41,551 nucleotides of DNA from positions 1 to 41,551 of the forward strand of contig JABFSN010000094.1 in assembly GCA_013140575.1 (NCBI GenBank), given 5' to 3'. The translations under genes and the position numbers were made by a program. Origin of the DNA: Phycisphaerales bacterium (GTDB taxonomy: Bacteria; Planctomycetota; Phycisphaerae; UBA1845). The notes beneath the pieces are model-generated. The model saw only the letters and a program-made list of their open reading frames with translations. It did no database searches and was not told where the DNA came from. This document shows, one piece after another, positions 22,270 to 37,713 of this stretch. Numbering within the stretch: the first letter of the stretch is position 1; every line of letters starts with the position of its first letter.

Positions 22270-22646
22270 GGACAGCGGTACGTACGTGTTTAGCGTCTTT
22301 TTGGGTTGTCCGCCGCAGGCAGACCTGAGTGTAGCCCCGCGTTTCAACGCGGGGTATGCCCGAGACGCCATGGCGCCTAGTCCCGAAGGGACGGCTGAAA
22401 CCCCACGGAGCGATTCAGCCGTCCCTTCGGGACTATGGGCTCCCGGCGGTGCCGTCATCCCAGCACTGAAGTGCTGGGCTACATTCACAGCGTCCCCAAG
22501 GGACGCTAAACACATACTCGGTACTCCGTTGACCGTGGATGCGCGATTCAGCGCTCGAACGATTCGAAGCACAATCGCACTTCGCCGCGGGCAAGCGAGT
22601 ACGCTTGCCCATGCCACCCAAGCGATCAGACGCCGGGTTGCACTAG
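22262..22646. mobile_element. MITE-like palindromic element, copy 1, interrupted by a second element
   Basis: The left end is GGGTGGCACGGACAGCGG at 22262. The right end has the GGGCAAGCG/CGCTTGCCC hairpin (22589-22610), GCCACCC, and CTAG at 22643-22646. The left hairpin is split after CGGTAC (22276-22281) and resumes at a second CGGTAC (22519-22524). The right CTAG is shared with copy 2, so the copies are in tandem. Coordinates of the left end are approximate because it runs into the glycosidase gene. Confidence 0.65.
22282..22518. mobile_element. Nested repeat element with own inverted ends
   Basis: The segment begins GTACGTGTTTAGCGTC (22282-22297) and ends in the complement of GTATGTGTTTAGCGTC (22502-22517), a 16-base inverted repeat with one mismatch. 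It is flanked by CGGTAC on both sides. Inside are three strong hairpins: CCCCGCG/CGCGGGG (22335-22354), a perfect 21-base stem between 22379-22399 and 22414-22434, and CCCAGCAC/GTGCTGGG with a TGAA loop (22459-22478). It contains no transposase, so it would depend on an enzyme supplied elsewhere. Confidence 0.65.
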
Positions 22647-22820
22647 TGTTGTGACGCAGATTAAGTTTCGCGTCGGGTGGCACGGACAACGGTACTCCGT
22701 TGTCCGTGTGAAACCCGCCAGCGCGTTGAAATCGCAGTCGAGGCCGAAAGTCGGAGATCACGGGCAAGCGAGTACGCTTGCCCGTGCCACCCCGAAAAAT
22801 TAGGTGTGACGGAACACTAG
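22643..22820. mobile_element. MITE-like palindromic element, copy 2 (complete)
   Basis: This 178-bp element is bounded by CTAG at both ends (22643-22646 and 22817-22820) with imperfect terminal inverted repeats of roughly 40 bases (CTAGTGTT... to ...GGGTGGCACGG). The body has two hairpins: CGGACAACGG/CCGTTGTCCG with a TACT loop near 22683-22706, and GGGCAAGCG/CGCTTGCCC with an AGTA loop near 22762-22783. It has no coding capacity. The right CTAG includes the stop codon of the adjacent minus-strand gene. Confidence 0.75.
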
Positions 22821-25159
22821 CGGTCGGACCATAACGTGCGCCAGACATCGAAAGCCTCCCGCGGTTTCCCCTGCAAATCGACCAGGCCCAGGGAATCGAA
22901 AAACGGCCCGAACCCGGTGGTGTCGGTCCAGAAGAAGTAGTTCACTAATAATAGGTTCATGTCCCGGGTCAATTCATCAAAGCGCGTCAGAAATTCGGCC
23001 TGGTCCGCAGTCGAGCTCCCGAACGTAGCGGACGGGGACCATCCCAGTTCCGAAAAAATGATGGGTTTGTCGGTGAAATCGAGGATTCGGGAGTAATAAT
23101 CGGCCGGGAGCAGATCCGGGTCGCTGAATTGCGTGGGGATGAACGAAACCAGCGGGTAGGACGATAACGCGACGGCGTCCTGATACGGTTCGAACATTTC
23201 GATCAGGTTCCAGTGGGGGTCGTGGATGGTCTGGTCGCCCAATCCGCCCCAGCGCCCCAGCAGTTGCTCGTATTGAAACGACACGAACACCAGGGTGTCG
23301 GGCAGGATGCCCTTGATCGCGTCGCGCAACTCGATGAACAGGGACAGGAAGTTTTCGAAGTCGTCCGGCTGCTGCTCGAAATAGGCGTTGATTTCCATGG
23401 CCAGACAGACGTACCGCGGTCGGTACCACAACACGCGCTGAACCACTTCGGTCATGTAGGACTCGCGTACGCCGGCCGAGGCAAACGTCTGGTCGGCCAG
23501 TTCCGGCGGCAGGCGATCGGTTAGCGGGCCGGATCGCGGTGGGCGATAAGGATCGATCTGCAGGAAAAAGCTGCTGCGCGTGCGTGTGGCCAAAATGTTC
23601 TGCCATTGCTGATCGCGGAAGACGTTGGACCGGGTCAGACCGCCGGTGGCGGGCCACCATTCGAGCGCTTCGGGCAGGGTCAGCACGCCGTCGATGTCGC
23701 CGACGCGTTTGTAGGATTCGTCGACGAAATCGGCGAGCCATATGCGCGGCACGGGCACGGATGTTCGCACGACGCGGGCGGCCGTCGTTGATCGTTCGGC
23801 GGGCGGCAGCGTCGGAACGGTGTGACCGGTGACGATCAGATCGGGCAGTTCATCGCCGTCGACGTCGCCCACCGCGACGCGGCGCGGCGCACCCGCGACG
23901 CCGTGCTCGATGGGCGCGCCGAAACGGCCGGTTCCATCGTTTATCATGACCAGCACGGCCCGGCCGTCGGCGGTGGACGTCACCAGGTCGACGGCACCGT
24001 CGCCGTTCAAGTCGGCGGCGTCGAGGGTGGACGGTGCGTCGCCGACGGGCAGGCGGGCCACGTCGACCAGCAGTCCGCTGCCGTCGTTGCGTAGAATGGA
24101 GATGTCGCCGCTGCCGGTGTTGGCGGTGGCGGCGTCGGGGCTGCCGTCACCATTGAAATCGGCCACCACCAGCGCGGCGGGTCGTTCGCCGACGACGTAT
24201 TCGACCGATGAAAAGAACCTGCCCTCGCCGTTGTTGTAGAGAGCGGAGACGGTGTTTCCCAAACCGCCGGCGGTGATCAGGTCGAGGGCGCCGTCGCCGT
24301 TGAGGTCGGCGGCGATCAGCTCGTCGGGCCAGATGCCGACCTCGTAGAAATTGAGGGAGACGCCGCCGAGGCTGCCGATGACCGCGACGGTGCGGTCGAA
24401 GCGGTTGACCGTGGCGATGTCGGGGATGGCGTCGCCGTCGAGATTCAGCAGGCGGACGCGGTCGACCAACCGCCCGACGGGCACCTCCTCGACCTCTTCA
24501 AATACGCCTTCGCCGTCGTTCAACAGGATGGAAATCGAGCCGGGGCGGGAATTGGCGGTGATCAGATCGGGAAAACCATCGACGCTGATGTCGCCGACGG
24601 CGACGTAGACGGGGCTTTCGGCCACGGGCAGGTTGACCGCGTCGTCAAACGTACCGTCGGCGTGGTTGAACAGCAGGCTGATGTCGTCGCTACGGGCGTT
24701 GCAGACCACCAGATCGTTCGAGCCGTCGCCGTTCAGATCGTGGGCGATGACGTGGACGGGATCCTCGCCGACGGGGTATAGCACGCGAGGCAGGAATCCT
24801 CCGGCGCCGTTGTTGCGATGCACCGAAATCGTCCCGGCATGGAGGTCGGCGAGTACCAGATCGGGGGTGTCGTCGTCGTTCAAATCGACGAGCAACGGAT
24901 AGTGCGGGTCGTCGCCGTCGGCGTCGTCGACGCGCACGTCAAACGAGCCGCCGCCGACGTTTTTCAGGAGCGCCACCGGAAACGCGGGTGAATCATCGAC
25001 GTTGGCGTTGTCGTTCGCGTTGCCGTTGCCCGGGTCGTCGTCGTTGCCCGGCGGCGCAGGGCTGCATCCGGTGGCGCAGGCGATCAGCGCCGTGGCCGCG
25101 ACGCCGCACAATAGCAAGCGGGAGAAAACGTGGCATGTGCTTCCAGCCCATGATTTCAC
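22817..25159 (-). CDS. Lipoprotein: FG-GAP/VCBS beta-propeller fused to predicted glycosidase, paralogue 2
   Basis: From the GTG at 25159 the protein has about 780 residues. The N-terminus is a clear lipoprotein signal (hydrophobic run, then ALIACATGC with lipid Cys at 32), followed by an Asn/Asp/Gly linker. Residues about 50-470 contain eight FG-GAP/VCBS-type blades with Ca2+-binding D-x-N-x-D-G-x-x-D motifs (DLNGDGSNDLV, DFNGDGSPDAA, DLNGDGAVDLV), an integrin-alpha-like propeller. Residues about 480-780 are the TIM-barrel domain shared with both neighbours: LEWWPATG, DQQWQN, LAMEINAYF (likely acid/base Glu), HDPHWNLIEMFEPYQDAVAL and IIFSELGWSP (likely nucleophile Glu). The start codon is supplied by a palindromic repeat array and lacks a ribosome-binding site. 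The propeller may bind a polymer or mediate surface docking. Confidence 0.85.
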   Translation of the reverse strand: MKSWAGSTCHVFSRLLLCGVAATALIACATGCSPAPPGNDDDPGNGNANDNANVDDSPAFPVALLKNVGGGSFDVRVDDADGDDPHYPLLVDLNDDDTPDLVLADLHAGTISVHRNNGAGGFLPRVLYPVGEDPVHVIAHDLNGDGSNDLVVCNARSDDISLLFNHADGTFDDAVNLPVAESPVYVAVGDISVDGFPDLITANSRPGSISILLNDGEGVFEEVEEVPVGRLVDRVRLLNLDGDAIPDIATVNRFDRTVAVIGSLGGVSLNFYEVGIWPDELIAADLNGDGALDLITAGGLGNTVSALYNNGEGRFFSSVEYVVGERPAALVVADFNGDGSPDAATANTGSGDISILRNDGSGLLVDVARLPVGDAPSTLDAADLNGDGAVDLVTSTADGRAVLVMINDGTGRFGAPIEHGVAGAPRRVAVGDVDGDELPDLIVTGHTVPTLPPAERSTTAARVVRTSVPVPRIWLADFVDESYKRVGDIDGVLTLPEALEWWPATGGLTRSNVFRDQQWQNILATRTRSSFFLQIDPYRPPRSGPLTDRLPPELADQTFASAGVRESYMTEVVQRVLWYRPRYVCLAMEINAYFEQQPDDFENFLSLFIELRDAIKGILPDTLVFVSFQYEQLLGRWGGLGDQTIHDPHWNLIEMFEPYQDAVALSSYPLVSFIPTQFSDPDLLPADYYSRILDFTDKPIIFSELGWSPSATFGSSTADQAEFLTRFDELTRDMNLLLVNYFFWTDTTGFGPFFDSLGLVDLQGKPREAFDVWRTLWSDR

Positions 25160-25245
25160 GGGCAGGATGCCCGTGCCACGGAAGATCACGGGCAAGATGC
25201 CCGTGCCACGGATCGTCACGGGCGAGACGCCCGTGCCACGTGGGC
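25156..25245. repeat. Three tandem 30-bp palindromic repeats
   Basis: Units start at 25156, 25186 and 25216. Each holds CACGGGC-x(5)-GCCCGTG followed by CCACG. Copy 3 has compensating changes (CGAGACG in place of CAAGATG) that keep the stem intact. In the minus direction the open frame through the array reads repeated R-G-T-G-I-L-P-V. The stem sequence resembles the second hairpin of the CTAG element. The array fills the gap between two paralogous glycosidase genes. Confidence 0.9.
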
Positions 25246-25250
25246 GGCGG

Positions 25251-26294
25251 CTATTCGTTCCACATCGATTTCCAGACATCGAGCGCCTTTTTTGGATTCC
25301 CGGCGGAATCGAGCAACCCCATGGAACTGAAAACAGGTCCGAACCCCTGCACATCATACAGGAAATAGTAGTTCACTAACAGCAGGTTCATTCCGTCGGT
25401 CAGCTTGCCGAATCGCCGCAGGAACGCGGCCTGGCGCTCCTGCGAGCCGCCGTACTTGTCGTCGCTGGCGTATCCCAGTTCGGCGAACACGATCGGTTTT
25501 TTGGTGTGGGCGGACACGCGCGAATAGTAATCGTCGGGCAAGTCGGCCGGGTCGCCGAAGCGCGGCGGGTTCATGCCCTCCATCGGATAGGACGACAGAC
25601 CGAATGCATCGACGTGCGGCTCGAATTTCTCGAACAGGTGCCATTGCGGTTCGTGTTTGTGCCGCGGGCCCAGTTCGGGGTAGCGGCCCAGCAGCGACTC
25701 GTATTGAAACGAAACCAGCACGACGGCGTCGGGTTTGATTTTCTTGATTTCGTTGCGGGTCTCGACGAACAGGGAAATGAAATTGTCGAAATCGTCGGGC
25801 TGTTCATCGTAGTAGGCGTTGATTTCCATGGCCAGGCATACCATCGACGCGTTGTACCACTTCACGCGGGCGACGGATTCGGCGATGAACGCCTGCCGGA
25901 CCGCGGGCGATGCAAACGTCTGATCTTTCAGTTTGTCGGGCAGTCGTTTGGACAACGGTCCCGTGCGCGGCGGGGCGTAGGGGTCCAATTGAATGAACAC
26001 GTTCAGCTTGTGCTGCTGGATCAGATAGTTTTGCCACTGTTGATTCTGATACGTCCGGGATTTTTCCGGCGCCGCGTCTGTGGCGTGCCACCATTCGAGC
26101 GGGTCGGTCAGGCTGATCCAGTCGACGGTCTCGTCGGCGGTTTTGAACGCCTTGAACATACCGTCCTGGTCCCAACTGGGCGGCGTGGGGACGTTGGAGC
26201 GAATGACCGGCGGTTTGGGATCGATGGGCGGGTCGCCATTGGCGGATCCATTCGCCGAAATCACCATACACGCCACCGCCGGACAGAAACGCAA
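25251..26294 (-). CDS. Predicted TIM-barrel glycosidase, tandem paralogue 3
   Basis: The protein has about 347 residues from the TTG at 26294 and is probably exported through a short signal-like start (MRFCPAVACMVISANGSANG). The ATG at 26269 is an alternative; the longer frame to 26513 runs through palindromic repeats and is not protein-like. It consists only of the catalytic-type domain: LEWWHATD, NQQWQN, IQLDPYAPPRTGPL, LAMEINAYY, HEPQWHLFEKFEPHVDAFGL, PIVFAELGYAS and a C-terminal LLVNYYFLYDVQGFGP. The paired Glu in MEIN and AELG match retaining clan-A glycosidases. It is closest to the C-terminal half of the neighbouring propeller fusion, so one probably arose from the other by duplication. 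The substrate is unknown. Confidence 0.82.
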   Translation of the reverse strand: MRFCPAVACMVISANGSANGDPPIDPKPPVIRSNVPTPPSWDQDGMFKAFKTADETVDWISLTDPLEWWHATDAAPEKSRTYQNQQWQNYLIQQHKLNVFIQLDPYAPPRTGPLSKRLPDKLKDQTFASPAVRQAFIAESVARVKWYNASMVCLAMEINAYYDEQPDDFDNFISLFVETRNEIKKIKPDAVVLVSFQYESLLGRYPELGPRHKHEPQWHLFEKFEPHVDAFGLSSYPMEGMNPPRFGDPADLPDDYYSRVSAHTKKPIVFAELGYASDDKYGGSQERQAAFLRRFGKLTDGMNLLLVNYYFLYDVQGFGPVFSSMGLLDSAGNPKKALDVWKSMWNE

Positions 26295-26748
26295 GAACGG
26301 GAAACCGAGTTCGTCCGCCCTCCGGGCGGGAGGAACGGAGGGAAGCCCCATCCGGGGGCTGAAGCCCCCGGCTATGATCGCGCGCCCTCCGGGCGGGGAA
26401 TCGGACGCTACGAAGGTTTCATGCGGCCCGCCACTCGCGTGGCGGGTTCTGATCATGGCACCCGACCCGAGTGTTGGAGTGCGGCGGACGATTGATGCGA
26501 GGCAACGCTTCATTTCGTCATTCCCGCGCGTCGCGCGAATCTACAAACAGGACGGCCGGCACGATCCGTCGCGCGGACCCCCGCGCCGCCGGTCATTATA
26601 GCGGTCGCCAAGGTTCCGGCAGCGCGGCGGGCGGTGGTCGAATGGGCGGGTCGCCGTGCCGGATCGGCGGGTGAATCCCGCCCTGCATGACTACCCGGTG
26701 GTGAAGGTTCTGAATCGGACGATGAACCTCGCCGTGCCGAAATGGGAA
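26295..26748. other. Intergenic region with palindromic repeats between murD and glycosidase 3
   Basis: No gene is supported. The left half (about 26317-26460) is a cluster of hairpins: CCGGGGGC/GCCCCCGG with a TGAA loop (26352-26371), CCCGCCAC/GTGGCGGG (26427-26446), and two copies of GCCCTCCGGGCGGG (about 26317 and 26384). The TGAA-loop hairpin has the same design as the one at 22459-22478. The right half holds a possible minus-strand -10 box and nothing else I can recognise. Confidence 0.6.
26595..26600 (-). promoter_or_regulatory. Possible -10 box for the glycosidase cluster
   Basis: On the minus strand this is a perfect TATAAT, rare in such GC-rich DNA, in the gap upstream of the three glycosidase genes. 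No good -35 hexamer stands 16-18 bases upstream, so the call rests on the -10 match and position alone. Confidence 0.3.
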
Positions 26749-28158
26749 TCAGTCGTTGACGTGGTGGAACCGTTTGACGATTTCGGCGAATGCGCGGCCG
26801 CGGTGTTCGTAGTTGGGGAATTCGTCGTAGCTTTCAAAACCGGGGACCAACAGGACGATGTCGCCGTCACGGGCGGCACGGCACGCGGACGCGACGGCCT
26901 CGCCGAACGTCGCGGCAATTTCGATGACCGGGCGTGGGCCGCAAGTCGCGTCCAATCGAACGGCATCGGCTAGGATCGCCCCGCCGCCGCCGAAACAGAA
27001 CAAGGAGCGTGCCGATTCGCGGATGGCCGATTGCAGCAGGTCCAGCGAAACGTCACGGGCTTTTCCGCCCATCAACGCGATGACCGGCCGATCGAACGCC
27101 CGCAACGATGCGGTCGCCGTTGTCGGGCAGGTGGCCTTGGAATCGTTGTAATAGCGGACGCCGTTGAACAGACCGACGAATTCGAGCCGGTGGGGCAGCC
27201 CGCGGAATTCCCGCAACGCCGCCGCCGTGCGATCCGCGTCCAGTCCCAGCAGGCGGCAGACCACCGTTGCGCAGCGCGCGTTGTCCGCATTGTGCGCGCC
27301 GGGGAGCGTCAACCCGGTCGGCGGCGGTTCGTCACCGGCGCGGATTATCGATCCACCGAACGAATCGGCCACGTCGCGGACGCGGGCGATCAGCCGGTCG
27401 TCATGGCCACCGATGACGACGGGCGTACACGCCGTCGCCCCGCGGATGATGTTCAATTTGGCGTCCACGTACGCGTCGAAAGAACCGTGCCGATCGATGT
27501 GATGTGGAAACGCGTTCACCAGAACGGCCAATTCCGGCCGACGCGCGATCCGCGGCAGGTCGGCCAGTTGAAAACTGGACAGTTCCAGGACGACAACGTC
27601 GCGTTCGGACATTTCCGCGACATCGGCCAACAGCGACCGGCCGATGTTGCCGCCCATGTAGCACGCGCCGCCCGACCAAGACGCCGACAGGCCGGCATGG
27701 ATCATGGCCGTGGTCGTGCTTTTTCCGGCCGATCCGGTGACGCCGATCACCGTCGCCGGACATCGCGCCAGAAACAGATTGATTTCCGTCGTCCACGGTA
27801 CGTTTCGCCGTACGATTTCCGCGAAAAACGGCGACCGTTCCTGGGGAACAGCCGGGCTGACGACGACTAGCGCCGCGTCGGTCAACAGGTCGGCGCGATG
27901 GCCGCCCAGTTCGAATCGCAGATCGATGTCGGCCAGTTGCGCGATGGAATCGGAAAGTGCGGCGCGATCGGCGAGGTCGGTGACGATGACCCGGGCGTCG
28001 TGCGCCGCCAACCAACGGGCGGCGCCGATGCCGCCGCCGAACCGGCCCAGTCCCATCACCACGACGCGTTTGCCGGACAGATCGCCGATGGCGGCGATTG
28101 TGGCGGCGTCAGGGTTTGGTCGCGGACGCCACGGCGCTGATGAAATCACGGCAGGCAC
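26749..28158 (-). CDS. murD: UDP-N-acetylmuramoylalanine--D-glutamate ligase
   Basis: MurD adds D-glutamate to UDP-MurNAc-L-Ala in the cytosol, the second amino-acid step of peptidoglycan precursor synthesis. The 469-residue length fits the family. The N-terminal Rossmann domain has VVVMGLGRFGGGIG. The ATP domain has VTGSAGKSTTT in place of the common GTNGKST, then LELSSFQL, the HHIDRHGSF region and DAKLNII with the Lys that is normally carbamylated. The C-terminal domain has YYNDSKAT, LMGGKARD and FPNYEHRGRAFAEIV, where the usual S-P-A-x-x-S-F-D becomes VPGFESYDEF. The GTG at 28158 (or 28149) overlaps the 3' end of pyrF by about 40-50 bases, so the two genes are probably co-transcribed and coupled. 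Confidence 0.95.
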   Translation of the reverse strand: MPAVISSAPWRPRPNPDAATIAAIGDLSGKRVVVMGLGRFGGGIGAARWLAAHDARVIVTDLADRAALSDSIAQLADIDLRFELGGHRADLLTDAALVVVSPAVPQERSPFFAEIVRRNVPWTTEINLFLARCPATVIGVTGSAGKSTTTAMIHAGLSASWSGGACYMGGNIGRSLLADVAEMSERDVVVLELSSFQLADLPRIARRPELAVLVNAFPHHIDRHGSFDAYVDAKLNIIRGATACTPVVIGGHDDRLIARVRDVADSFGGSIIRAGDEPPPTGLTLPGAHNADNARCATVVCRLLGLDADRTAAALREFRGLPHRLEFVGLFNGVRYYNDSKATCPTTATASLRAFDRPVIALMGGKARDVSLDLLQSAIRESARSLFCFGGGGAILADAVRLDATCGPRPVIEIAATFGEAVASACRAARDGDIVLLVPGFESYDEFPNYEHRGRAFAEIVKRFHHVND

Positions 28159-29056
28159 GTTCGACGCATTTCTCCCATTCGGATGCGTACAATTCGATGT
28201 ATTTCATTTCCTCGTACGCATAAATGACGCTGCGCGACGCGGTGACGATGGCGCCGCCGCCGTCCGGATTGAAACATGGGGCTACGTCGCCCGAATCGCG
28301 TCCCTGCGCGCCGAACCCCGGCACCAGGAAAAAACACCGCGGCATCAACGAGCGCAGAACCGCAGTCGAGGCCGCGTCGCGCGGCGACACCACCGCCCCG
28401 ATCGAGCTGTAGCCGCACGATCCGATCAGTCCGTCGTCGCCCGACCATTCATGGACCATGCGGGCGATGGACTGGGCGACGGTCTGACCGTCGGCGAGTT
28501 TGGCGCCCTGGATGTTGACGGCCGATTCGTTGCTGGTCTGCACCAGCACAAAAACGCCCTTCTGATCGCGGCGGGCGGCGTCGATGAACGGTTTGACGCC
28601 GTCCAGCCCAAAATAGGGGTTCACGGTAATCGCGTCGGGAATCATCAGTTCGTCGGCGTCGCGCAGCGACGGATGGGACAAATGGGCCTGGGCGTACGCG
28701 GCCGACGAGTGCCCCACGTCGCCGCGTTTGACGTCGCCGATGACGATCAGACCGCGGGAGCGGGCCTCCTGAACCAGGTCGAAATAGGCTTCCAATCCAG
28801 GGCCGTAGTAGGTCTCGAAGAATGCGGCGTTGATTTTCACGACAGGGACGAGCGGGGCGACGATTTTGATGACCGCGCGGCAGAATTCGCGGACGGCGTC
28901 GAGGGCGCATTCGTTGTCCGATTCGTCGTCGAAGCCGGCGCGCTCGGAAATGTCCGCGGGAAGGCGTTCGTACAGCGGATCGATCCCGACGCACGTGGAC
29001 GTCCGCTTGGCGCGGATGGCGGCGGACAAACGGTCTGCAAAATTTTGATCGGTCAC
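28109..29056 (-). CDS. pyrF: Orotidine 5'-phosphate decarboxylase (type 2)
   Basis: PyrF converts OMP to UMP, the last step of de novo pyrimidine synthesis, in the cytosol. The 315-residue protein belongs to the longer type-2 group: RLSAAIRAKRTSTCVGIDP at the start, KINAAFFETYYGPG, the catalytic GDVKRGDVGHSSAAYA (D-x-K-x-x-D) and the C-terminal FFLVPGFGAQG with ASRSVIYAY near the phosphate site. The GTG at 29056 is chosen because AGGAG lies six to seven bases upstream and family similarity starts right after it; the longer frame to 29332 is spurious. It overlaps murD downstream and is divergent from rsgA across a 250-base gap. Confidence 0.96.
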   Translation of the reverse strand: MTDQNFADRLSAAIRAKRTSTCVGIDPLYERLPADISERAGFDDESDNECALDAVREFCRAVIKIVAPLVPVVKINAAFFETYYGPGLEAYFDLVQEARSRGLIVIGDVKRGDVGHSSAAYAQAHLSHPSLRDADELMIPDAITVNPYFGLDGVKPFIDAARRDQKGVFVLVQTSNESAVNIQGAKLADGQTVAQSIARMVHEWSGDDGLIGSCGYSSIGAVVSPRDAASTAVLRSLMPRCFFLVPGFGAQGRDSGDVAPCFNPDGGGAIVTASRSVIYAYEEMKYIELYASEWEKCVERACRDFISAVASATKP

Positions 29057-29203
29057 CGGCGGCTCCTGTGTTGCCGGGGCGGCGCTCGTTCGCGCGCATC
29101 GCGCTCCGGCACCCCAATCTACGGGCGGTTCCATTGCCCGGCAACGGCACACCATGGCAGATCGCGGGAAAGCGAACGAAATACACGGCGGCCGTCGCGT
29201 CGC

Positions 29204-29233
29204 TTGACACGTCGAACGGGCCGGTCGGACAAT
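29204..29233 (+). promoter_or_regulatory. Predicted sigma70-type promoter for rsgA
   Basis: TTGACA (29204-29209), an 18-base spacer and GACAAT (29228-29233) lie in the divergent pyrF-rsgA gap. Transcription would start near 29240, about 70 bases before the rsgA ATG. Confidence 0.5.
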
Positions 29234-29307
29234 GGCAAAACCATGAATCGCCCACGGCGGCCATTCGATGGCGCGTAGCCGGGCGAACGGGCAAAACGAC
29301 CGATTCC

Positions 29308-30447
29308 ATGCCTGAAGACGAACCGAAACCACCCGCGGGCAGAAAACACCGTACGGAATTCCGGGCCAATCGCGGCCAGCGGGCGCGCGGAAAAAACTGG
29401 ACGCGGCGCGCGCATCAAGCCGACGGCGGCGAATGGGACGCGGTCCAGGACGAGCGCATTTCGGGCCGCGGTCAACTGTCGCGCAAGCGGACCATCAAGG
29501 TCGACCAAAACGACCAGCGGATCGTTGAGGCCGGCACGCGCGACGGAATCGTCATTACGGTGTTCGGCGCCGTCGCCCAGGTCGACGACGGCAATCGCAT
29601 CTGGCTGTGTACCGTGCGCCGCATCCTGCGCACGCTGCAAATCCGCGAGCGCAGCCCGGTCGTGGTCGGCGACCGCGTGCAATTCCGAATCGAGTCGGAA
29701 CGCGAAGGAGTGGCGGCCGAGGGGGTCATCGAAAATGTCCTGCCGCGGCGCGGCGAATTGAGCCGCGTGGCCGGTCGGCGCGTGCACACCGTTGTAGCCA
29801 ACGTGGATCAAGCCGTCATCGTCACGTCGCTGGGTTCGCCCAAACCCAAACCGCACCTGCTTGACCGGTACATCGTGGCCGCGATCAGCGGCGGGCTGAC
29901 CCCGATCGTCTGCGTGAACAAGATCGACAGGGCCGAGGCGGACGAGGTGGACGACCTCCGCGGCATGTATGACCGCATCGGATACCCAACGCTGGCGACC
30001 AGCGCTGTCACCGGCGCCGGAATCGACGCGTTGCGCGAGTGTTTGAACGGCAAGACGTCGGTTATCGCCGGACAAAGCGGAGTCGGAAAAAGCTCGCTGC
30101 TGAACGCGGTGCAACCCGAATTGGGTCTGGCGGTGGGCACCGTCGTACACGACACGCAGAAGGGCCGCCACACTACCACGCGCGGCACGTTGTTGAGGCT
30201 GAATGGCGGGGGGTACGTCGTGGACACGCCGGGGGTCAAGGCGTTCGACGTTCAATGCGTGCCGACCGCGGAACTGGAACGGTGTTTCGTGGAGTTCATG
30301 GAATTCATTCCGAATTGCAAGTTTCCCGATTGCACGCACATTCACGAGCACGAGTGCGCCGTCCGCGACGGCGTGGAGCGCGGCGACATCCACCCCGACC
30401 GCTACGGAAGCTACGTCCGGTTGTTCACCAATCCCGACTACCGATGA
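29308..30447 (+). CDS. rsgA: Ribosome small subunit-dependent GTPase A
   Basis: RsgA is a circularly permuted GTPase that checks and releases late 30S assembly intermediates. The 379-residue protein has a basic N-terminal extension (KHRTEFRANRGQRARGKNW), an OB-fold (GIVITVFGAVAQVDD through GDRVQFRI), then the permuted G motifs: G4 VNKID (about 203), G5 TSAVTGAG, G1 GQSGVGKSS (about 255), G2 region GRHTTTRG and G3 DTPGVKAF (about 306). A C-terminal zinc knuckle follows (CKFPDCTHIHEHEC). The ATG at 29308 is chosen because the upstream in-frame sequence to 29068 lacks protein character and overlaps the predicted promoter. cdsA follows after a short stem-loop. Confidence 0.96.
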   Translation: MPEDEPKPPAGRKHRTEFRANRGQRARGKNWTRRAHQADGGEWDAVQDERISGRGQLSRKRTIKVDQNDQRIVEAGTRDGIVITVFGAVAQVDDGNRIWLCTVRRILRTLQIRERSPVVVGDRVQFRIESEREGVAAEGVIENVLPRRGELSRVAGRRVHTVVANVDQAVIVTSLGSPKPKPHLLDRYIVAAISGGLTPIVCVNKIDRAEADEVDDLRGMYDRIGYPTLATSAVTGAGIDALRECLNGKTSVIAGQSGVGKSSLLNAVQPELGLAVGTVVHDTQKGRHTTTRGTLLRLNGGGYVVDTPGVKAFDVQCVPTAELERCFVEFMEFIPNCKFPDCTHIHEHECAVRDGVERGDIHPDRYGSYVRLFTNPDYR

Positions 30448-30501
30448 TCCGCCGATTCACGTCGTCCGGGGCGCTCGGCATTACTGATGGACAGTCACCC
30501 G

Positions 30502-30531
30502 GTGCATCGGTAACGTGCGCGCCCGATGCAC
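30502..30531. terminator. Stem-loop between rsgA and cdsA
   Basis: GTGCATCGG (30502-30510) and CCGATGCAC (30523-30531) form a perfect nine-base stem with a 12-base loop, about 55 bases after the rsgA stop. No T-run follows, so it could be an attenuator or an mRNA-stability structure instead. It covers the upstream in-frame ATG (30526) of cdsA, favouring a downstream start. Confidence 0.4.
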
Positions 30532-30600
30532 AATCGTCTCGGCGGCGGATCGCCGGGAAAGAATGGGCGGACGATCAACGTAGTCAAAACGCCAAACCGC

Positions 30601-31605
30601 ATGAGGCAGGGCATGTATCAGCGAATCGCAACGGGCGTCGTCGGCGTCGCCGCGCTGTTGTTCGTGGTCATGCTGGACGCGTTCATCGCCGGGCGGGCGG
30701 GAGAATGGGGTGTCGCCGCGGACCTGTTGTCCCGTGGAAGCGTGATCCCGCTTCTATTCGCCATGATCATGGTGGCCGCGGTTGTGGAGTCGTCCGACCT
30801 GATGCGGCGGGCGGGATGCCGGCCGCACACCGGACTGGCGGCCGTGTGGGTGGTCGTGTTGATGGTGTCGCCGTGGTTGTGCGCCGGCCGGATGCTGGGC
30901 GATGCTCCGGCCGACGTCGAGGGGTTTCGTTGGCAGGTAATATGGTTGTCGGGGTCATTCGTTTGTGTCGGCACGTGGCACCTGAAACGGGGAGTGGATC
31001 GAGCAGCGCTGGCCGACCTGGGAAGCACGATTCTGCTGATCCTGTACCTGGGATTGCTGCCGTCGTTCGCCGTGCAGCTGCGCAGCGGAACCGACATGGG
31101 CGATCCGCACGACGGTGCATGGATCATTCTGATCGTCCTGGCCATTGCGCTCGCGACCGACGTGTTCGCGCTGTTCGCAGGAATGGCGTTCGGTCGGCAC
31201 CCGCTGGCACCTGCGATCAGTCCCCAAAAAACAGTCGAAGGAGCGATTGGCGGAATATTGGGAAGCATTCTTGTGGCACTGTTGATTTACGCCGTCGCAC
31301 GACTGGTTGGTTCGTCGGACGCTGAAATCCAAGACGTGGGAAACCGATCGGAGACGCTGCTGGACCGCATGACGGGGGTTTTCGACCGGATGTCGCTGAT
31401 TCAAGTGATCGTCCTGGGGGCGGTGCTGTCGATAATGGCGCAGGTAGGGGATTTGTTTGAATCGCAACTGAAGCGCAGCGCGCAAGTTAAGGATTCATCG
31501 GCAGTTATACCCGGAATGGGCGGGGTGCTGGACGTCATCGACGGCGTCGTGTTCGCGGTACCCGCGGCGTGGGTGCTGCTATCTTGTGTTTGGGGATTAG
31601 TGTAG
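30601..31605 (+). CDS. cdsA: Phosphatidate cytidylyltransferase (CDP-diglyceride synthase)
   Basis: CdsA makes CDP-diacylglycerol from phosphatidate and CTP in the inner membrane, the branch point of phospholipid synthesis. The protein (about 334 residues) has seven to eight hydrophobic helices and the C-terminal family signature GDLFESQLKRSAQVKDSS, then PGMGGVLDVIDG. The D-x-x-D of the signature is present, but the usual DRIDS ending reads DVIDG. Starts at 30601 (MRQGMYQR) or 30613 are preferred to 30526, which lies in the stem-loop. Neither has a strong ribosome-binding site. It opens a tight gene run: phoH begins one base after its stop. Confidence 0.9.
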   Translation: MRQGMYQRIATGVVGVAALLFVVMLDAFIAGRAGEWGVAADLLSRGSVIPLLFAMIMVAAVVESSDLMRRAGCRPHTGLAAVWVVVLMVSPWLCAGRMLGDAPADVEGFRWQVIWLSGSFVCVGTWHLKRGVDRAALADLGSTILLILYLGLLPSFAVQLRSGTDMGDPHDGAWIILIVLAIALATDVFALFAGMAFGRHPLAPAISPQKTVEGAIGGILGSILVALLIYAVARLVGSSDAEIQDVGNRSETLLDRMTGVFDRMSLIQVIVLGAVLSIMAQVGDLFESQLKRSAQVKDSSAVIPGMGGVLDVIDGVVFAVPAAWVLLSCVWGLV

Positions 31606-31606
31606 G

Positions 31607-32617
31607 ATGCGATCCAGGCTGGGTCGGCCGGAACGAGCGATTTCGGTCGGGGCGAAGCCGGGAGATCGTCAGCAGAAGTTGGAACTAAGCGTTCCCATCG
31701 AAGACACGTCCAAAAGCGTGGCGCTGTTCGGCGCCACCGATACCCACTTGCGATTGATCCGTGCGGCGTTCGATGTGCGCCTGACCGCGCGCGACGGCGC
31801 GATCCACTTGTCGGGCGAACCGGACGCGGTGCGCAAGGCGGCAGACACGATTCTGGTAATGCAGCAACGTCTGCGCACCGGCCGGGAGCTGTCGGGGCGC
31901 GACGTCGAGGCGGTGATTGCGGAGGCCAGTCGGGCGGCAGCGACCGTGGCGGGCGATTCGTTGGATGCGCTGGCCAACGGTTCGCGGATTACGCCGAAAA
32001 CCGAGGGGCAGAAGTCCTACGTCGAGGCCATGTTCCAGCATACATTGACGTTTTGTCTGGGGCCGGCGGGTACGGGCAAGACGTATCTGGCGGTGGCCGT
32101 CGCGGTGACGATGTTGAAGCGGCGGCAGATCGGGCGGATCGTGCTGGTCCGGCCGGCGGTGGAGGCGGGGGAGAAGCTGGGTTATCTGCCGGGCGATATT
32201 CAGGCGAAGGTGAATCCGTACCTGCGTCCGTTGCTCGACGCGCTGAACGACATGATGGGGTTCGATCAGATCAAGCGGCTGATGGAGAACGACATCATCG
32301 AGGTGATCCCGCTGGCGTTCATGCGCGGGCGCACGTTGAACCGGGCGGTGATCATCCTGGACGAGGCCCAGAACGCGACGGTGTCGCAGATGCTGATGTT
32401 CATGACGCGGCTGGGGGCGGACAGCACCATGATCATCGCCGGCGACGACAGCCAGACGGACCTGGGGCCGGGGCAGCGCAGCGGCGTGCAGGACGCGGTG
32501 AAGCGTCTGGCCCGGGTGAAGGACGTGGCCGTGATCCGGTTGGAGCATAGTGACATCGTGCGGCACCCGCTGGTGCAGCGGATCGTGCAGGCGTACGACA
32601 CACGCGACAGGTCGTGA
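31607..32617 (+). CDS. ybeZ: PhoH-like ATPase (YbeZ type)
   Basis: This is a cytosolic P-loop ATPase linked to RNA metabolism and ribosome maturation with YbeY. The 336-residue protein has an N-terminal KH-like segment (about 40-90), then the PhoH core: TPKTEGQKSYVEAM, Walker A GPAGTGKTY (about 152), VRPAVEAGEKLGYLPGD, FMRGRTLNRAVIILDEAQN (Walker B), AGDDSQTDL and the terminal VRHPLVQRIVQAYD. The ATG at 31607 starts one base after cdsA and its stop overlaps the next gene's GTG, so the unit is probably one transcript with coupled translation. The proximity to ybeY is the widespread ybeZ-ybeY arrangement. Confidence 0.95.
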   Translation: MRSRLGRPERAISVGAKPGDRQQKLELSVPIEDTSKSVALFGATDTHLRLIRAAFDVRLTARDGAIHLSGEPDAVRKAADTILVMQQRLRTGRELSGRDVEAVIAEASRAAATVAGDSLDALANGSRITPKTEGQKSYVEAMFQHTLTFCLGPAGTGKTYLAVAVAVTMLKRRQIGRIVLVRPAVEAGEKLGYLPGDIQAKVNPYLRPLLDALNDMMGFDQIKRLMENDIIEVIPLAFMRGRTLNRAVIILDEAQNATVSQMLMFMTRLGADSTMIIAGDDSQTDLGPGQRSGVQDAVKRLARVKDVAVIRLEHSDIVRHPLVQRIVQAYDTRDRS

Positions 32618-34989
32618 CCATGGCGGCAAGGCGGGCGGTCAATCGAGCGCAGGCGGTGCGGCAGCGGAACGGCCGGCGGTCCGTGAGTTGGTCGCGGCTG
32701 TGGAAGGCGATGGGCAGTGCGCCGGTGCTGTCGGCCGCGGCGCTGTTCGCGGCGGCGACCGCGATCGCGCTGTATGGCGGGCATTCGCCCAAGTATGCGG
32801 TAGGACAGAAGTTCGATCATCCCATCTACCCGGACGTGGATTTCGAGACGGAGGACGCACAGCAGACCCTGCGCCACCGGCAGGCGGCGCGGGCTTCGGT
32901 TCCCAGCCACTACGGCGTGGACGGCGGGTTGATCGCGGAAATCGCCACAGCGTTGCAGAACGTCTATCAGGCAGCGCAAGCGGCGGAGACGTACGAGGCG
33001 TTTCAAGCGGTGGCGACGGCGAACGGGTGGCGAGTCGACGGACCGGCGTACCAGCACCTGCACGCCATCACCGACGAGCCGAAGCGGAAGGCGTTTGAGG
33101 AGCGCATCGGTCCGCTTCGCGAACGCCTGGCGAGTGAATACACGCGATCGGCGGACGCGGAACGCGAGCGGACGCCGGCGTCGACGGCCAACGTGGCGGT
33201 CGTTCATGGACCGGAGCCGCAAGACGGCACGGGCGGCGGGGGCGCGGTCCGGGACGTGAACACGTTTGCGTTGTTGCCGATCTCGAACGAGGTGGGCATC
33301 CGCCGCGCGGCGGGCGATCTGGCCGGGGCGTTCGCGCCGCCGCTGAGGGCGGCGGTGGCGGACCTGCTGGCGTCGCGCTTGTCGACGAGGCCGTTGCTGG
33401 CCTACGACGCGGCATTGACCAACGAGAAAATGGCGGAGGCGGAGCAGGGCGTCGGTACGGTTTTGATCAAGTACGAACGCGATCAGCCGATGATTCCGGT
33501 CCGCGCCGACACCGGTTTGACGCCGTCGGACCTGGAACTGCTGGCCATCCACGACCAGGCTTATCGATCGTTCATTGCCGGGGACGCCCCCGGGGCGCGG
33601 GCGTTGCGCGATCAGGAGTTGTTGGAGAAGGCGGGCGTCGCCGTGGTGCTGGCGCTGGCGACGGTGGGGCTGTTCGTCTACCTGGGCGTGCACCAGCGGC
33701 GGGTGCTGGAGGTTCCGTCGCGGACGCTGGCGCTGGCGGCGGTGGTGGCGGCGACGCTGCTGGCGGCGCGGTTGATCGACGCCCGGCTGCCGTTCAAGTC
33801 ATTGACGCTGGTGCCGGTGTTGTTCACCGCGTCGGTGCTGGCGATCGCGTATTCGCGGCGATTCGCGGCCGGGGTGATGATCATCGTGGCCATCATGGTG
33901 ACGCCGGCGGTGCGCGGGGACATCGGACTGCTGGTGACGCTGATGGTGGGTGTGGCGGCGACGGTCTACATGCTGCAGGACATCCGCACGCGGACGCAAC
34001 TTCTGTGGGTGGGCCTGGCGTCGGGTTCGGCCGTGTTCCTGTCGACGACCGCGTTCGGGCTGCTGGACAGGCAGGCGTGGGGATTCGCGGCGGGGAACGG
34101 TGCGTGGTCGGCGGGGGCGGCGCTGGCGTCCGCCATGATGGTGCAGATGACGTTGCCGTTCATCGAGCGGATCGGTCGGGTGGCGACGGCGCTGACGCTG
34201 CTGGAATGGCGCGACCCGACGCGGCCGCTGCTGCAACGATTGGCGCGGGAAGCGCCGGGGACGTACACGCACAGTCTGGCGCTGGGAACGCTGGCGGAAG
34301 CGGCGTGCCGGGAGATCGGGGCGAACGGTCTGTTGGCCCAAGTCGGGGCGTTGTACCACGACATCGGCAAGTTAAACAAGGCCGCGTATTTCGCGGAAAA
34401 CCAGGAGGCGAAGATCAACCGTCACGATCGGTTGTCGCCGACGATGAGCCTGTTGATCATCATCGGGCATGTGAAAGACGGGCTGGAGTTTGCGAGGGAG
34501 TACAAGCTGCCGCGCGTGTTGCACCCGTTCATCGAAGAGCACCACGGGACGACGGTAGTGCAGTATTTCCATCGGATGGCGAGCGACCACCAGCCGCAGA
34601 TCGCCAGCGGACGGCACGACCGCGACGTTCCGGAGTCGCAATTCCGCTACCCCGGCCCGAAGCCGAGCACCCGGGAATCGGCCGTGCTGATGATGTGCGA
34701 CGGCGTGGAAGGCGCGGTGCGCACGCTGGCGGAACCGTCGCCGGGGCGCATCGAAAACGTCGTGCATCAGATCGTGACGGCGCGTCTGAACGACGGACAG
34801 TTCGACGACTGCGACATCACGTTGCGGCAGTTGCGGCGGGTGGAGGAGTCGCTGGTCAGGAGCCTGTGCAGTTACTATCACGGCCGAATCAGCTACCCCA
34901 AGGCCCGCGAGAAGGACGAACGTCCGGCGAATCATGTGCGGGAGACGGCCGCGAAGGTGCCGGCGGGCGCCACCAGCGCCGCGGGCTGA
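32614..34989 (+). CDS. pgpH: 7TM-HD domain phosphohydrolase, PgpH-like (putative cyclic-di-AMP phosphodiesterase)
   Basis: The membrane protein of about 791 residues (GTG at 32614, or ATG at 32620) has the 7TMR-HDED layout. It has an N-terminal helix (LSAAALFAAATAIALYGG), a large extracytoplasmic domain (about 60-330), a block of six to seven membrane helices (about 345-520) and a cytoplasmic HD domain. The HD motifs are visible: TYTHSLALGTLAEAA, GALYHDIGKLNKAAYFAENQ, MSLLIIIGHVKDGLEFAREY and the later FIEEHHGTTVVQYF and MMCDGVEGA. Known PgpH proteins cleave cyclic di-AMP; the substrate here is inferred. Its place between phoH and ybeY is common in bacteria and suggests co-regulation of envelope and ribosome functions. 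Confidence 0.92.
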   Translation: MTMAARRAVNRAQAVRQRNGRRSVSWSRLWKAMGSAPVLSAAALFAAATAIALYGGHSPKYAVGQKFDHPIYPDVDFETEDAQQTLRHRQAARASVPSHYGVDGGLIAEIATALQNVYQAAQAAETYEAFQAVATANGWRVDGPAYQHLHAITDEPKRKAFEERIGPLRERLASEYTRSADAERERTPASTANVAVVHGPEPQDGTGGGGAVRDVNTFALLPISNEVGIRRAAGDLAGAFAPPLRAAVADLLASRLSTRPLLAYDAALTNEKMAEAEQGVGTVLIKYERDQPMIPVRADTGLTPSDLELLAIHDQAYRSFIAGDAPGARALRDQELLEKAGVAVVLALATVGLFVYLGVHQRRVLEVPSRTLALAAVVAATLLAARLIDARLPFKSLTLVPVLFTASVLAIAYSRRFAAGVMIIVAIMVTPAVRGDIGLLVTLMVGVAATVYMLQDIRTRTQLLWVGLASGSAVFLSTTAFGLLDRQAWGFAAGNGAWSAGAALASAMMVQMTLPFIERIGRVATALTLLEWRDPTRPLLQRLAREAPGTYTHSLALGTLAEAACREIGANGLLAQVGALYHDIGKLNKAAYFAENQEAKINRHDRLSPTMSLLIIIGHVKDGLEFAREYKLPRVLHPFIEEHHGTTVVQYFHRMASDHQPQIASGRHDRDVPESQFRYPGPKPSTRESAVLMMCDGVEGAVRTLAEPSPGRIENVVHQIVTARLNDGQFDDCDITLRQLRRVEESLVRSLCSYYHGRISYPKAREKDERPANHVRETAAKVPAGATSAAG

Positions 34990-35021
34990 AACCACGGGCC
35001 GAAGCGGACGGTGAGTGCCTG

Positions 35022-35492
35022 ATGCGATCGGATTCGGCGTACGAAATCGAGGTGACCGGAGCGGAAGGCGTGCCGGACGTCGACGCGGACGCCATTCGGC
35101 GCGCCGTCGAAGGAGCGTTGCGGCACCGTGCGTGCGCCAGGGCGCAGATCAGCGTGGCGTTGATCGACGACGACGCAATCGCGGAGTTGAATCAACGATT
35201 TCTGGGCCACGAGGGGTCCACCGACGTTCTGTCGTTCGACCTGTCCGACGCCCCGGATTCCGGCGCCGTCGATGGCGAGGTCGTCATTTCCGCGGACACC
35301 GCCCGGCGTGAGGCCGCCGCGCGGCGCCACCCGGCGGCGCACGAGCTGTTGCTGTACGCGGTGCACGGCACGTTGCACTTGCTGGGGATGGACGATCAAA
35401 CCGAGATTGGCGCGGCCGAGATGCATGCCATCGAAAACGAAATACTGACCGGGATGGGCATTGGTCCGGTTTACGGCGCGGAACCACGATGA
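35022..35492 (+). CDS. ybeY: Endoribonuclease / rRNA maturation factor YbeY
   Basis: YbeY is a metal-dependent factor for 16S rRNA 3'-end maturation and 70S quality control. The 156-residue protein has the family core: ISVALIDDDAIAELNQRFLG, HEGSTDVLSFDLSD, DGEVVISADTARREA and the metal-site HGTLHLLGMDDQ. The first two His (115 and 119) are present, but the third ligand position, usually His in H-x-x-x-H-x-x-G-x-D-H, is Asp (125). The ATG at 35022 fits the family start and lies 33 bases after the pgpH stop. Its TGA overlaps the ATG of the next gene in an ATGA coupling. Confidence 0.93.
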   Translation: MRSDSAYEIEVTGAEGVPDVDADAIRRAVEGALRHRACARAQISVALIDDDAIAELNQRFLGHEGSTDVLSFDLSDAPDSGAVDGEVVISADTARREAAARRHPAAHELLLYAVHGTLHLLGMDDQTEIGAAEMHAIENEILTGMGIGPVYGAEPR

Positions 35493-36172
35493 GGATTGCG
35501 ATTCTGGATGTGGCTCGCGATCCGCGCAGCCGGGCGACGACCATCGCCCGCGTGGTGCGGCTGATCGACGCGGCCGCGGGTGACGAACCGCCGCCGGACG
35601 TCGTGGTGGTGCCGGCCGGTTGTGACGGTGCGTCCGGGGCGGCCATTCCGCCGTCGGTCGGTCTGGCCGACACGTATCGCGAGACGCTGGCGGCGAAGGC
35701 GAACGAATGGGGCGTGTACGTGGTGGCGGCCAATCGGTGGGTCGATCCGCACCGGGTCATGACCCGACCGATCGTTCTGGATCCCGACGGGGACGTCATC
35801 GCGGGTTGGGGGGCGCCGGCGCCGGTGGGTTCGCCCGGATCGGAAACCGTGTGGGCCGAAACGGTGATGGGTCTGATCGGCGTGTCTTGTGGAGGAGGGG
35901 AGACCCATCCGCGCGTGCCGGTTGGTGGCGAGCGGAGATGTTGTGTCGTGAGCATGGATGTGCCCGCGGCGTTCGGCTCGTCCGGGACATTGAATAGCGG
36001 CGCCGGCGCGGGCGAGGGGCATGGGTGCGGCGTGCGGGTCCATTTCGGTGCGGCGATGGATGGGTCCGCCGGGTTGATCACCAACCCCGGCTTGGCCGCG
36101 ACGGTGATTCATCGTCGAGAACATCCACCGGCCGGGACGGTGTTTACGGTGGAGGATTCGGTGAACGCGTAA
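35489..36172 (+). CDS. Putative degenerate carbon-nitrogen hydrolase-like protein
   Basis: The 227-residue protein starts at the ATGA overlap with ybeY, so it is almost certainly translated with it. Its first half resembles the nitrilase superfamily: a MRIAILDVARD strand, DVVVVPAGCDG at the place of the usual V-x-P-E, LAAKANEWGVYVVAANR, and RPIVLDPDGDVIAGWG. The catalytic Glu appears replaced (PAGCDG), the region of the catalytic Cys reads MGLIGVSCGGG, and a catalytic Lys is not evident. The C-terminal half is Gly/Ala-rich with no recognisable motif. It could be a catalytically dead relative or an unrelated protein with chance similarity. Function is unknown; association with ybeY is by position only. 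Confidence 0.7.
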   Translation: MRIAILDVARDPRSRATTIARVVRLIDAAAGDEPPPDVVVVPAGCDGASGAAIPPSVGLADTYRETLAAKANEWGVYVVAANRWVDPHRVMTRPIVLDPDGDVIAGWGAPAPVGSPGSETVWAETVMGLIGVSCGGGETHPRVPVGGERRCCVVSMDVPAAFGSSGTLNSGAGAGEGHGCGVRVHFGAAMDGSAGLITNPGLAATVIHRREHPPAGTVFTVEDSVNA

Positions 36173-36185
36173 GTGGCCTGCGTAT

Positions 36186-36231
36186 CCCGTTTGTTTCCGC
36201 ACCGGGCCTGCGCCCCGTGCCCTGAAACGGG
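36186..36231. terminator. Hairpin between convergent genes
   Basis: Outer arms CCCGTTT (36186-36192) and AAACGGG (36225-36231) enclose a second, imperfect stem (GCACCGGGC/GCCCCGTGC). It lies just after the plus-strand gene ending at 36172 and before the minus-strand gpsA end at 36342, as expected for a shared terminator. No T-run is present. Confidence 0.4.
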
Positions 36232-36341
36232 TATCACACGCCCAACGCATGCGCGCGAACGATGCGATTCGAGCTTGTTCACCGGCCGGCGTCAGCTCGG
36301 GGTTCGAGCAGGCGAACGGCCACGGAAGCGTCGATTCGCGG

Positions 36342-37355
36342 TCACCGGAATTCGGCGCCGAGACGGCGGGTCATCAGGTCGGTGATGGCGTCGCGGGGGG
36401 CGACGTGGTCGAACAGAACGGCGTGAACGGCGCGGGTGATGGGCATTTCCACAGCGTGACGCTCGGCCAGTTGCAGAACGCTGCGCGTCGTTTCGATGCC
36501 CTCGATCACGCCCGCCGACGTGGCCACGACCTCGGCGACGGGCATCCCCCGGCCGATCTTTTCGCCGGCGGTGTGGTTGCGGCTCAATCCCGACGAGCAG
36601 GTGGTGATCAGATCGCCGATGCCGGCCAGTCCGCGAAACGTCGCGGGCACGGCGCCCATCGCCTGCCCCAACGCGGCGATTTCAGCCAGCCCGCGGGTCA
36701 TCAACGAGGCCTTGGCGTTGTTGCCGAGTTTCATGCCGTCGCAAACCCCGGCCGCGATGGCGATGACGTTTTTGACCGCCCCGCCCAGTTCCACGCCGAT
36801 CACGTCGTGATGGGTGTACACCCGCAGCGTGGGCGTGGATAGCGCTTCCTGCACCAATCGGGCTGCGTCGGCGTCGGTGCCGGCGACCACGACGGCCGCC
36901 GGCAGACCGGCCGCGACTTCACCAGCCAGGCACGGTCCGGACAACGCTACGACGGTCGCGCCGGCGGTGACGTCGGCGAGAATCTCCGTCGGACGCAACA
37001 ACGTGTCCACCTCGATGCCCTTGGTCACGCTGACCACCGGGGCGGCGAACGTCGGGCACGCGTCCATCAATGTTCGCCAGACGGATCGCGTGTACTGGCA
37101 GGGGACGGCCGACACGATCAGTTCCGCGTCGCGCAGACATTCGCCCGGATCGGACGTGACCGTCAAACCGTCGGGAAACGCGGCGCCCGGCAGGTAGCGG
37201 CGGTTTTCGCGATCGGTGTTCAATTCCCCGACCCGGGCGGGCGATCGGCCGTACAGAACCGTTCGCACCCCGCGCTCGGCGAGCAAGCGGGCGCACAAGG
37301 TGCCCATGGCGCCGGTTCCGATGACGCCGGCCCGATGCAGCGCAGATTGGTTCAT
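36342..37355 (-). CDS. gpsA: Glycerol-3-phosphate dehydrogenase [NAD(P)+]
   Basis: GpsA reduces dihydroxyacetone phosphate to sn-glycerol 3-phosphate, the backbone of phospholipids, in the cytosol. The 337-residue length is typical. Visible motifs are the dinucleotide loop GVIGTGAMGT (the common W after the second loop Gly is M), VSAVPCQYTR, SVTKGIE, LSGPCLAGEVAAGLP, the catalytic-Lys segment GGAVKNVIAIAAG and FRGLAGIGDLITTCSS with SRNHTAGEKIGRG. The ATG at 37355 has a GAGG about ten bases upstream. Its promoter region is squeezed by a palindromic element (37392-37534). Together with cdsA in the same window it supplies phospholipid synthesis. Confidence 0.95.
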   Translation of the reverse strand: MNQSALHRAGVIGTGAMGTLCARLLAERGVRTVLYGRSPARVGELNTDRENRRYLPGAAFPDGLTVTSDPGECLRDAELIVSAVPCQYTRSVWRTLMDACPTFAAPVVSVTKGIEVDTLLRPTEILADVTAGATVVALSGPCLAGEVAAGLPAAVVVAGTDADAARLVQEALSTPTLRVYTHHDVIGVELGGAVKNVIAIAAGVCDGMKLGNNAKASLMTRGLAEIAALGQAMGAVPATFRGLAGIGDLITTCSSGLSRNHTAGEKIGRGMPVAEVVATSAGVIEGIETTRSVLQLAERHAVEMPITRAVHAVLFDHVAPRDAITDLMTRRLGAEFR

Positions 37356-37391
37356 GGGTCCGGCGCCTCAAGACGGTTGATTCTTCCGATT

Positions 37392-37534
37392 GGGTGGCAC
37401 GGACAACGGTACGCCGTTGTCCGTGTGCGGCCGGCGTGCGTGGAGGCATCGAGTCGCGTGCAGGAACCGAAGACCATGGGCAAGCGAGTACGCTTGCCCG
37501 TGCCACCCAACCATCAGGCGCGACGGACCGCTAG
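37392..37534. mobile_element. MITE-like palindromic element, copy 3
   Basis: GGGTGGCACGGACAACGG at 37392 opens the CGGACAACGG/CCGTTGTCCG hairpin. A variable middle of about 45 bases follows, then the GGGCAAGCG/CGCTTGCCC hairpin, GTGCCACCC (to 37508) and a conserved tail ending in CTAG at 37531-37534. The left terminal repeat beyond 37392 is weak. The CTAG contains the stop codon of the small minus-strand gene next to it, as in copy 2. No coding capacity. Confidence 0.75.
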
Positions 37535-37713
37535 AACCCCGTGCCGCCGAAAATCGAGCCGATGAAGCTGTTGATGAGCAGATTCCCGAACGCGACGATA
37601 AACGTGTTCAACAGTTCATCGAGGGCGCAGCCGGTCATCTGCGTCAAGGCGCATCCGGAAAGGATCGTCGTCAGACCGGCTAGGGGCCGGCGGGTCAGCA
37701 ACCATTTGGGCAT
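37531..37713 (-). CDS. Small lipoprotein-like peptide
   Basis: This 60-residue protein is supported by a good ribosome-binding site (AGGAG eight bases before the ATG at 37713) and by protein-like composition. It begins with a basic stretch and hydrophobic segment (MPKWLLTRRPLAGLTTILSG), has two lipobox-like Cys sites (LSGCA and MTGCA) and a hydrophobic C-terminal half ending in SFIGSIFGGTGF. It may be a membrane-attached or membrane-inserted peptide. I do not recognise a family. The stop codon is the TAG inside the CTAG end of a palindromic element, so the last residues may have been altered by the insertion. It lies 51 bases downstream of the SH3b gene on the same strand. Confidence 0.6.
   Translation of the reverse strand: MPKWLLTRRPLAGLTTILSGCALTQMTGCALDELLNTFIVAFGNLLINSFIGSIFGGTGF

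Follow-up and report, generated by a model that had tools for sequence, protein, structure and literature searches.

The window, i.e. the whole stretch of 41,551 nucleotides analysed here, contains a complete chimeric element of 172 bp on the plus strand (22646-22817), located between duplicated TA dinucleotides at 22644-22645 and 22818-22819. Sequence reading and BLAST gave its ends as GTGTTGTGACGC.. and ..GTGACGGAACAC. The element is bracketed by CTAG at 22643-22646 and 22817-22820, as an earlier reading based on the sequence alone (hereafter the sequence-only reading) had described. Its left IS630-type terminal repeat (22646-22676, plus strand) was assigned by comparison with the ends of an IS630 element on contig C42 (shuffle p of ~1e-4 or less). 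It is followed by a REP hairpin of the A type with GTGG and a 12-bp stem (22677-22708, plus strand), a 50-nt spacer which differs among subfamilies (22709-22758, plus strand), an inverted REP hairpin of the G type (22759-22790, minus strand) and a right IS630-type terminal repeat (22791-22817, minus strand), the latter identified by the terminal-repeat pattern and by comparison with the C42 ends. Both hairpins were recognized by pattern, folding and covariation.

The adjacent gene on the minus strand (22817-25357, codon-usage caller score of 252) has its TAG stop at 22817-22819, within the boundary CTAG. The name glycosidase 2 given to it in the sequence-only reading has to be dropped, as Pfam searches matched FG-GAP repeats and no glycosidase family. 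The same gene holds three CGTGGCACGG motifs with 30-bp spacing at 25171-25240, which are probably coding repeats. A tRNA call at 24807-24899 was rejected as spurious, since it lies inside the coding gene and its anticodon is undefined.

An older tandem copy extends from 22263 to 22643. Its first hairpin is composed of 22263-22281 and 22520-22537, its second hairpin lies at 22586-22617 on the minus strand, and its right end is the CTAG at 22643-22646 which it has in common with the younger complete copy. If this tandem reading holds, one stop codon would have been hit twice as a target. The GTAC loop of the first hairpin contains an unrelated palindromic repeat (GTGTTTAGCGTC..GGGACGCTAAACAC, 22282-22513), found by sequence reading. 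Members of this repeat family, with ends like GTGTTTAGCGTC and GTGATTGGCG, occur in GTAC loops of REP hairpins elsewhere in the genome (C44:4264-4504, C36:4313-, C32:19375- and C26:18087-), and their position looks as though REPs served as targets for this family.

Of the second copy, which is old, the left end has decayed. This copy retains an A-type hairpin (37394-37425, plus strand; pattern and folding), a G-type hairpin (37475-37506, minus strand; folding) and a right terminal repeat (37507-37531, minus strand) that ends at the CTAG at 37531-37534. An ORF of 60 residues on the minus strand (37531-37713, caller score of 19) has its TAG stop at 37531-37533 within this CTAG. Three of the four 32-nt hairpins in the window have a 12-bp stem and a 4-nt loop, with folding energies between -21 and -24 kcal/mol and z values between -4.7 and -5.9; in the right hairpin of the second copy 9 bp are left (-18.4 kcal/mol). 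An Rfam search of the window yielded no matches.

Sequence reading and folding thus confirmed that both copies share two hairpins and a terminal CTAG, and for both neighbouring ORFs the minus-strand TAG of this CTAG is indeed the stop codon. The two copies described earlier are real, with the refinement that the first lies in tandem with an older copy and that the second is old and decayed on the left. The presumed scarcity of CTAG was also found (9 in the window against 17.3 expected). The copies in the window belong to a repeat family with members throughout the genome.

Family members and IS630-type ends

A covariance-model search of the 5.05-Mb genome detected about 110 related loci after opposite-strand hits were discounted, and BLAST with the element and its right TAG as query retrieved about 42 copies. 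The terminal-repeat pattern matched 63 ends in the genome, compared to 7 for the reversed control, and the hairpin unit pattern 285 sites, compared to none. In the 559 kb of genome DNA examined, 86 hairpin pairs were present, each consisting of two inverted REP hairpins with GTGG at the foot. Wherever both hairpins could be typed, one was of the A type (CAACGG) and the other of the G type (CAAGCG); the two lay at a distance of 82 nt in 63 pairs. End sequences were recognizable on both sides in 45 of the 86 pairs and on one side in 21 more; the remaining pairs, about 20, showed no clear end traces, and some of them may be plain REPINs.

TA was found on both sides in 30 of the 45 two-ended copies. 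Among 36 copies with a left TA the target was CTAG in 26, TTAG in 3 and GTAG or CTAC in 5, and tandem copies have one CTAG in common. The target duplication is a TA duplication of the IS630/Tc1/mariner type, and the elements behave like MITEs which target TA and CTAG, in agreement with the MITE-like character proposed for them initially.

Some copies are mosaics that combine the ends of one subfamily with the spacer or the opposite end of another (C267:9073-9243 and C194:19634-19804), which suggests recombination through the hairpins. One locus (L089, C82:5725-5905) is a head-to-tail array of hairpins in the same orientation, of the GGTCAACGG type typical of the relative G046. The relatives searched included no genome of the same genus, and neither a transposition event nor an empty allele or a polymorphism was observed.

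A profile search returned a single DDE_3 match in the genome. The gene is part of an element at C42:~56675-57938 (minus strand) which is bordered by CTAG and has the ends GTGTCCCGTCACCGCTAAATCTTC and GTGTTGCGTCACTCGTTAATCTTC; both of its ORFs match the IS630 family transposase model NF033545, only the second above the cut-off. The sequence-only reading had suggested looking for a transposase gene between the same terminal repeats, and a gene with matching repeats on both sides is present in this single IS630 element of the genome. Compared with the C42 ends, those of the repeats agree at 17-21 of 28 positions, with a shuffle p of at most ~1.5e-4. Terminal inverted repeats that match an IS630 element, TA duplication and CTAG preference are the features of an IS630-derived MITE. 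PMC2170065 cites Tenzen and Ohtsubo (1991) for the preference of IS630 for CTAG, and ISY100 duplicates TA (PMC2170065). The terminal repeats and target sites suggest that the elements transpose and are mobilised by an IS630 transposase. Because one IS630 copy remains and matches the MITE repeats at no more than the positions given above, their true mover may be a relative that has been lost.

An A7 run splits the ORF of the C42 element. Its IS630 homologues in other genomes of the order carry a run of A6-A9 before the second ORF, at the junction of ORF1 and ORF2 (L187-L199), suggesting programmed -1 frameshifting rather than decay. These homologues end in CTAG and 23 nt, followed mostly by GGGT. 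Some of the repeats have a second type of end (CTAGTGGACCGATCC..TGCGGG), which is similar to the IS630s of G029, G062 and G033.

Excess of insertions at stop codons

Insertion sites were classified after the element had been deleted from the sequence and a single TA left in place, with gene calls from our own codon-usage caller, trained on the examined genome DNA, in place of a curated annotation. Among 54 sites the TA lay within a stop codon in 24, was intergenic in 28 and marginally coding in 2. At CTAG targets of the genome the ratio was 14 stop to 19 intergenic sites, compared to 15 to 77 for the remaining CTAGs in non-coding DNA, which corresponds to an odds ratio of 3.8 (p=0.004). Part of these background CTAGs are ends of unlisted elements, and their removal raised the odds ratio to 4.5. 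In five other genera, where part of the elements were scored by one end only, 21 stop and 60 intergenic sites stood against a background of 14 and 111 (p=0.008). The combined p value is 2e-4. Across the six genera, a position at a stop codon is about three times as frequent for boundary CTAGs as for the remaining CTAGs in non-coding DNA. The sequence-only reading had named a lack of excess at stop codons as its refutation, and its idea withstood this check.

Duplication of the TA, together with the G at the start of the element, preserves the TAG stop; the assumption of an intact reading frame was correct. Stops are enriched and insertion there is frame-neutral, in line with the suggestion that targeting of CTAG leads to stop codons, but 28 of the 54 insertions are intergenic and a stop codon as the actual target is not proven. 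The earlier interpretation as a whole is partly supported. In G036, 198 of 273 background CTAGs are coding, yet at most 2 of 43 elements possibly lie within a gene. The excess is best read as the probable outcome of a CTAG preference combined with the loss of harmful insertions, and not of a recognition of stop codons. Constraint acting on promoter regions may be the reason why stops are over-represented even relative to intergenic CTAGs. A comparable arrangement has been described for GTAG REPs, which often supply the TAG stops of flanking ORFs (PMC3733652).

Hairpin core and explanations of the family

Covariation was assessed in 18 variants of the hairpin, drawn from this genome and from relatives: 97.7% of the cells were paired, with 43 double changes compared to 12.5 in shuffles. 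The exact hairpin was found in one named record, a Phycisphaerae MAG. A RAYT gene on C164 (match to NF047646 with 85 bits, cut-off 80) is situated between hairpin pairs with the same hairpins as the elements. At least one GGTGGCAY motif occurred within 350 bp of 15 of the 20 RAYT loci of the order, and at these 20 loci 39 motifs were counted in 14 kb of flank, compared to 9 in the ~42 kb of remaining locus DNA. The closest homologues of the RAYT are encoded in G089, G019 and G046, three of the genomes with related hairpins. An inverted REP pair with GTGG and a cognate RAYT flanked by REPs are the features of a REPIN; the free-standing state typical of described REPINs, which is outside the formal definition, is not that of most pairs here. 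The two hairpins are the inverted REP pair of the resident RAYT family, and the RAYT probably acts on this core. The sequence-only reading had described the copies as MITE-like, which holds for the IS630-type ends; the pair between them differs from the usual interior of a MITE and is a REPIN with its own RAYT.

We consider it probable, at about 0.8, that the family consists of chimeric MITEs with IS630-type ends and a REPIN core, inserted into CTAG by an IS630 transposase and surviving at harmless sites that include stop codons. The terminal repeats would make the non-autonomous chimeras substrates of an IS630 transposase, which would cut and paste them into TA, preferentially within CTAG, under duplication of the TA. 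Between the repeats would lie the two inverted GTGG hairpins, the REPs that belong to the RAYT family of this genome. The surviving copies would mainly be those that break no gene, and a CTAG that ends a gene would be tolerated since the duplicated TA and the first base G can restore a TAG stop on either side.

The hairpins outlast the remainder of the element. In 45 old copies without the main end type, found through their hairpins, the hairpins had a mean column identity of 95-97%, compared to 57% for the spacer, 52-56% for the ends and 37% for the sequence outside. A trace of an end at the appropriate distance is still present in 27 of the 45. It is implausible that 64 nt stayed at 95% by chance next to sequence at 55%, and the hairpins are either under selection or renewed; the data fit both. 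This conservation in situ, together with the covariation and the frequent position of the hairpins about 27-31 nt past a stop codon, could indicate that the host retains them for a role at the RNA or DNA level such as 3' mRNA stabilisation, attenuation or protein binding. We regard such a role as the explanation of conservation and position as rather improbable, given that a hand count of element orientation relative to the gene at stops revealed no preference (~14 vs 10), that about half of the sites are away from stops and that the RAYT loci of other genera have their own hairpin variants. A host function is compatible with the chimeric MITE as an added layer.

Plain IS630 MITEs, with the hairpins as mere interior and an accidental association with the RAYT, would account for the IS630-type ends and the TA duplication in all well-preserved copies. 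They would leave unexplained the hairpins without IS630 ends beside RAYTs, both here and in G046, G053, G064 and others, and the naked hairpin pairs of G046. The 285 hairpins against ~63 ends in the genome and the longer survival of the hairpins also argue against this explanation, which appears unlikely. We give equally little credence to the stop coincidence being an artefact, either of gene truncation by the insertion or of the gene caller: an in-frame TA joined to the G of the element always yields TAG, but an in-frame TAG at a CTAG target was already a stop before the insertion, and the excess persisted with strong gene calls only (score of at least 40; 12/33 vs 9/88 stops, p=0.002) and was replicated in the five other genera. 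Plain REPINs moved by the RAYT alone, with the CTAG ends as fortuitous flanks, would fit the resident RAYT with matching REPs and the pairs devoid of end traces, and are very improbable in view of the long matching terminal repeats resembling IS630 ends, the TA duplication and the single CTAG common to tandem copies. Chance as the cause of the stop coincidence is disfavoured by the counts here and in five genera.

Recurrence in other genera and relation to known systems

The chimeric MITE recurs outside this genome. The pattern CTAGTG-(18-27 nt)-GGGTGGCA was counted 65 times in the genome itself (G000; control in brackets hereafter: 2), 56 times in G036 (0), 39 in G107 (0), 19 in G005 (2), 12 in G016 (1) and 7 each in G047 (0) and G096 (0). 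The matches that were read out are complete elements whose IS630-type ends and hairpin cores differ among genera. In many chimeras GGGTGGCA starts on at least one end right after CTAG and 23 nt, where autonomous IS630s mostly have GGGT; in G000, G016 and G005 the opposite end reads GGGTY-GGGTGG. Either a common origin or repeated fusion at GGGT may underlie the recurrence. As a tentative idea, which we hold to be possible and not the likelier outcome, one mobile unit could be served by two unrelated transposases: RAYT-type chemistry would place REPINs exactly at the GGGT of the inner IS630 edge, with the REP GGGTGG in register with end position 28, and IS630-group MITEs of the order would repeatedly be refilled with the current lineage-specific REPIN. 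The REPs would gain DDE-driven spread and, with the CTAG stops, safe havens.

REPINs are generally tied to a RAYT alone, and their movement is hard to observe. Since several genera have them enclosed by IS630 ends, they may possess a second way of spreading, or two transposition systems may have fused repeatedly at one precise junction. The stop sites provide a counted and replicated case in which stop codons offer a transposon low-cost insertion sites owing to its target preference. In the literature searched, which comprised open-access papers, no precedent for REPs inside IS630 MITEs was found.

RUP and Correia are IS630 MITEs (PMC2817692). Like RUP, Correia/NEMIS, Nezha and other MITEs of the IS630/Tc1/mariner group, the elements are non-coding, carry terminal repeats that match an IS630, duplicate TA and prefer CTAG; unlike these, their core is a REPIN linked to a second, unrelated transposase. 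With the REPINs or BIMEs and their RAYTs (PMC3116915, PMC2817692, PMC8266576) they share the inverted pair of GTGG-tagged hairpins, the high copy number, the RAYT flanked by the same hairpins and the compensatory variation. In contrast to REPINs and BIMEs, most copies here are located within IS630 repeats inserted at TA or CTAG, with a fixed pairing of A and G types and a mostly constant spacing (82 nt). As in the GTAG REPs (PMC3733652), repeat termini provide the TAG stop of flanking ORFs, but there the TAG stems from the GTAG of the REP, whereas here it is derived from the IS630 target CTAG, ~27-31 nt outside the REP.
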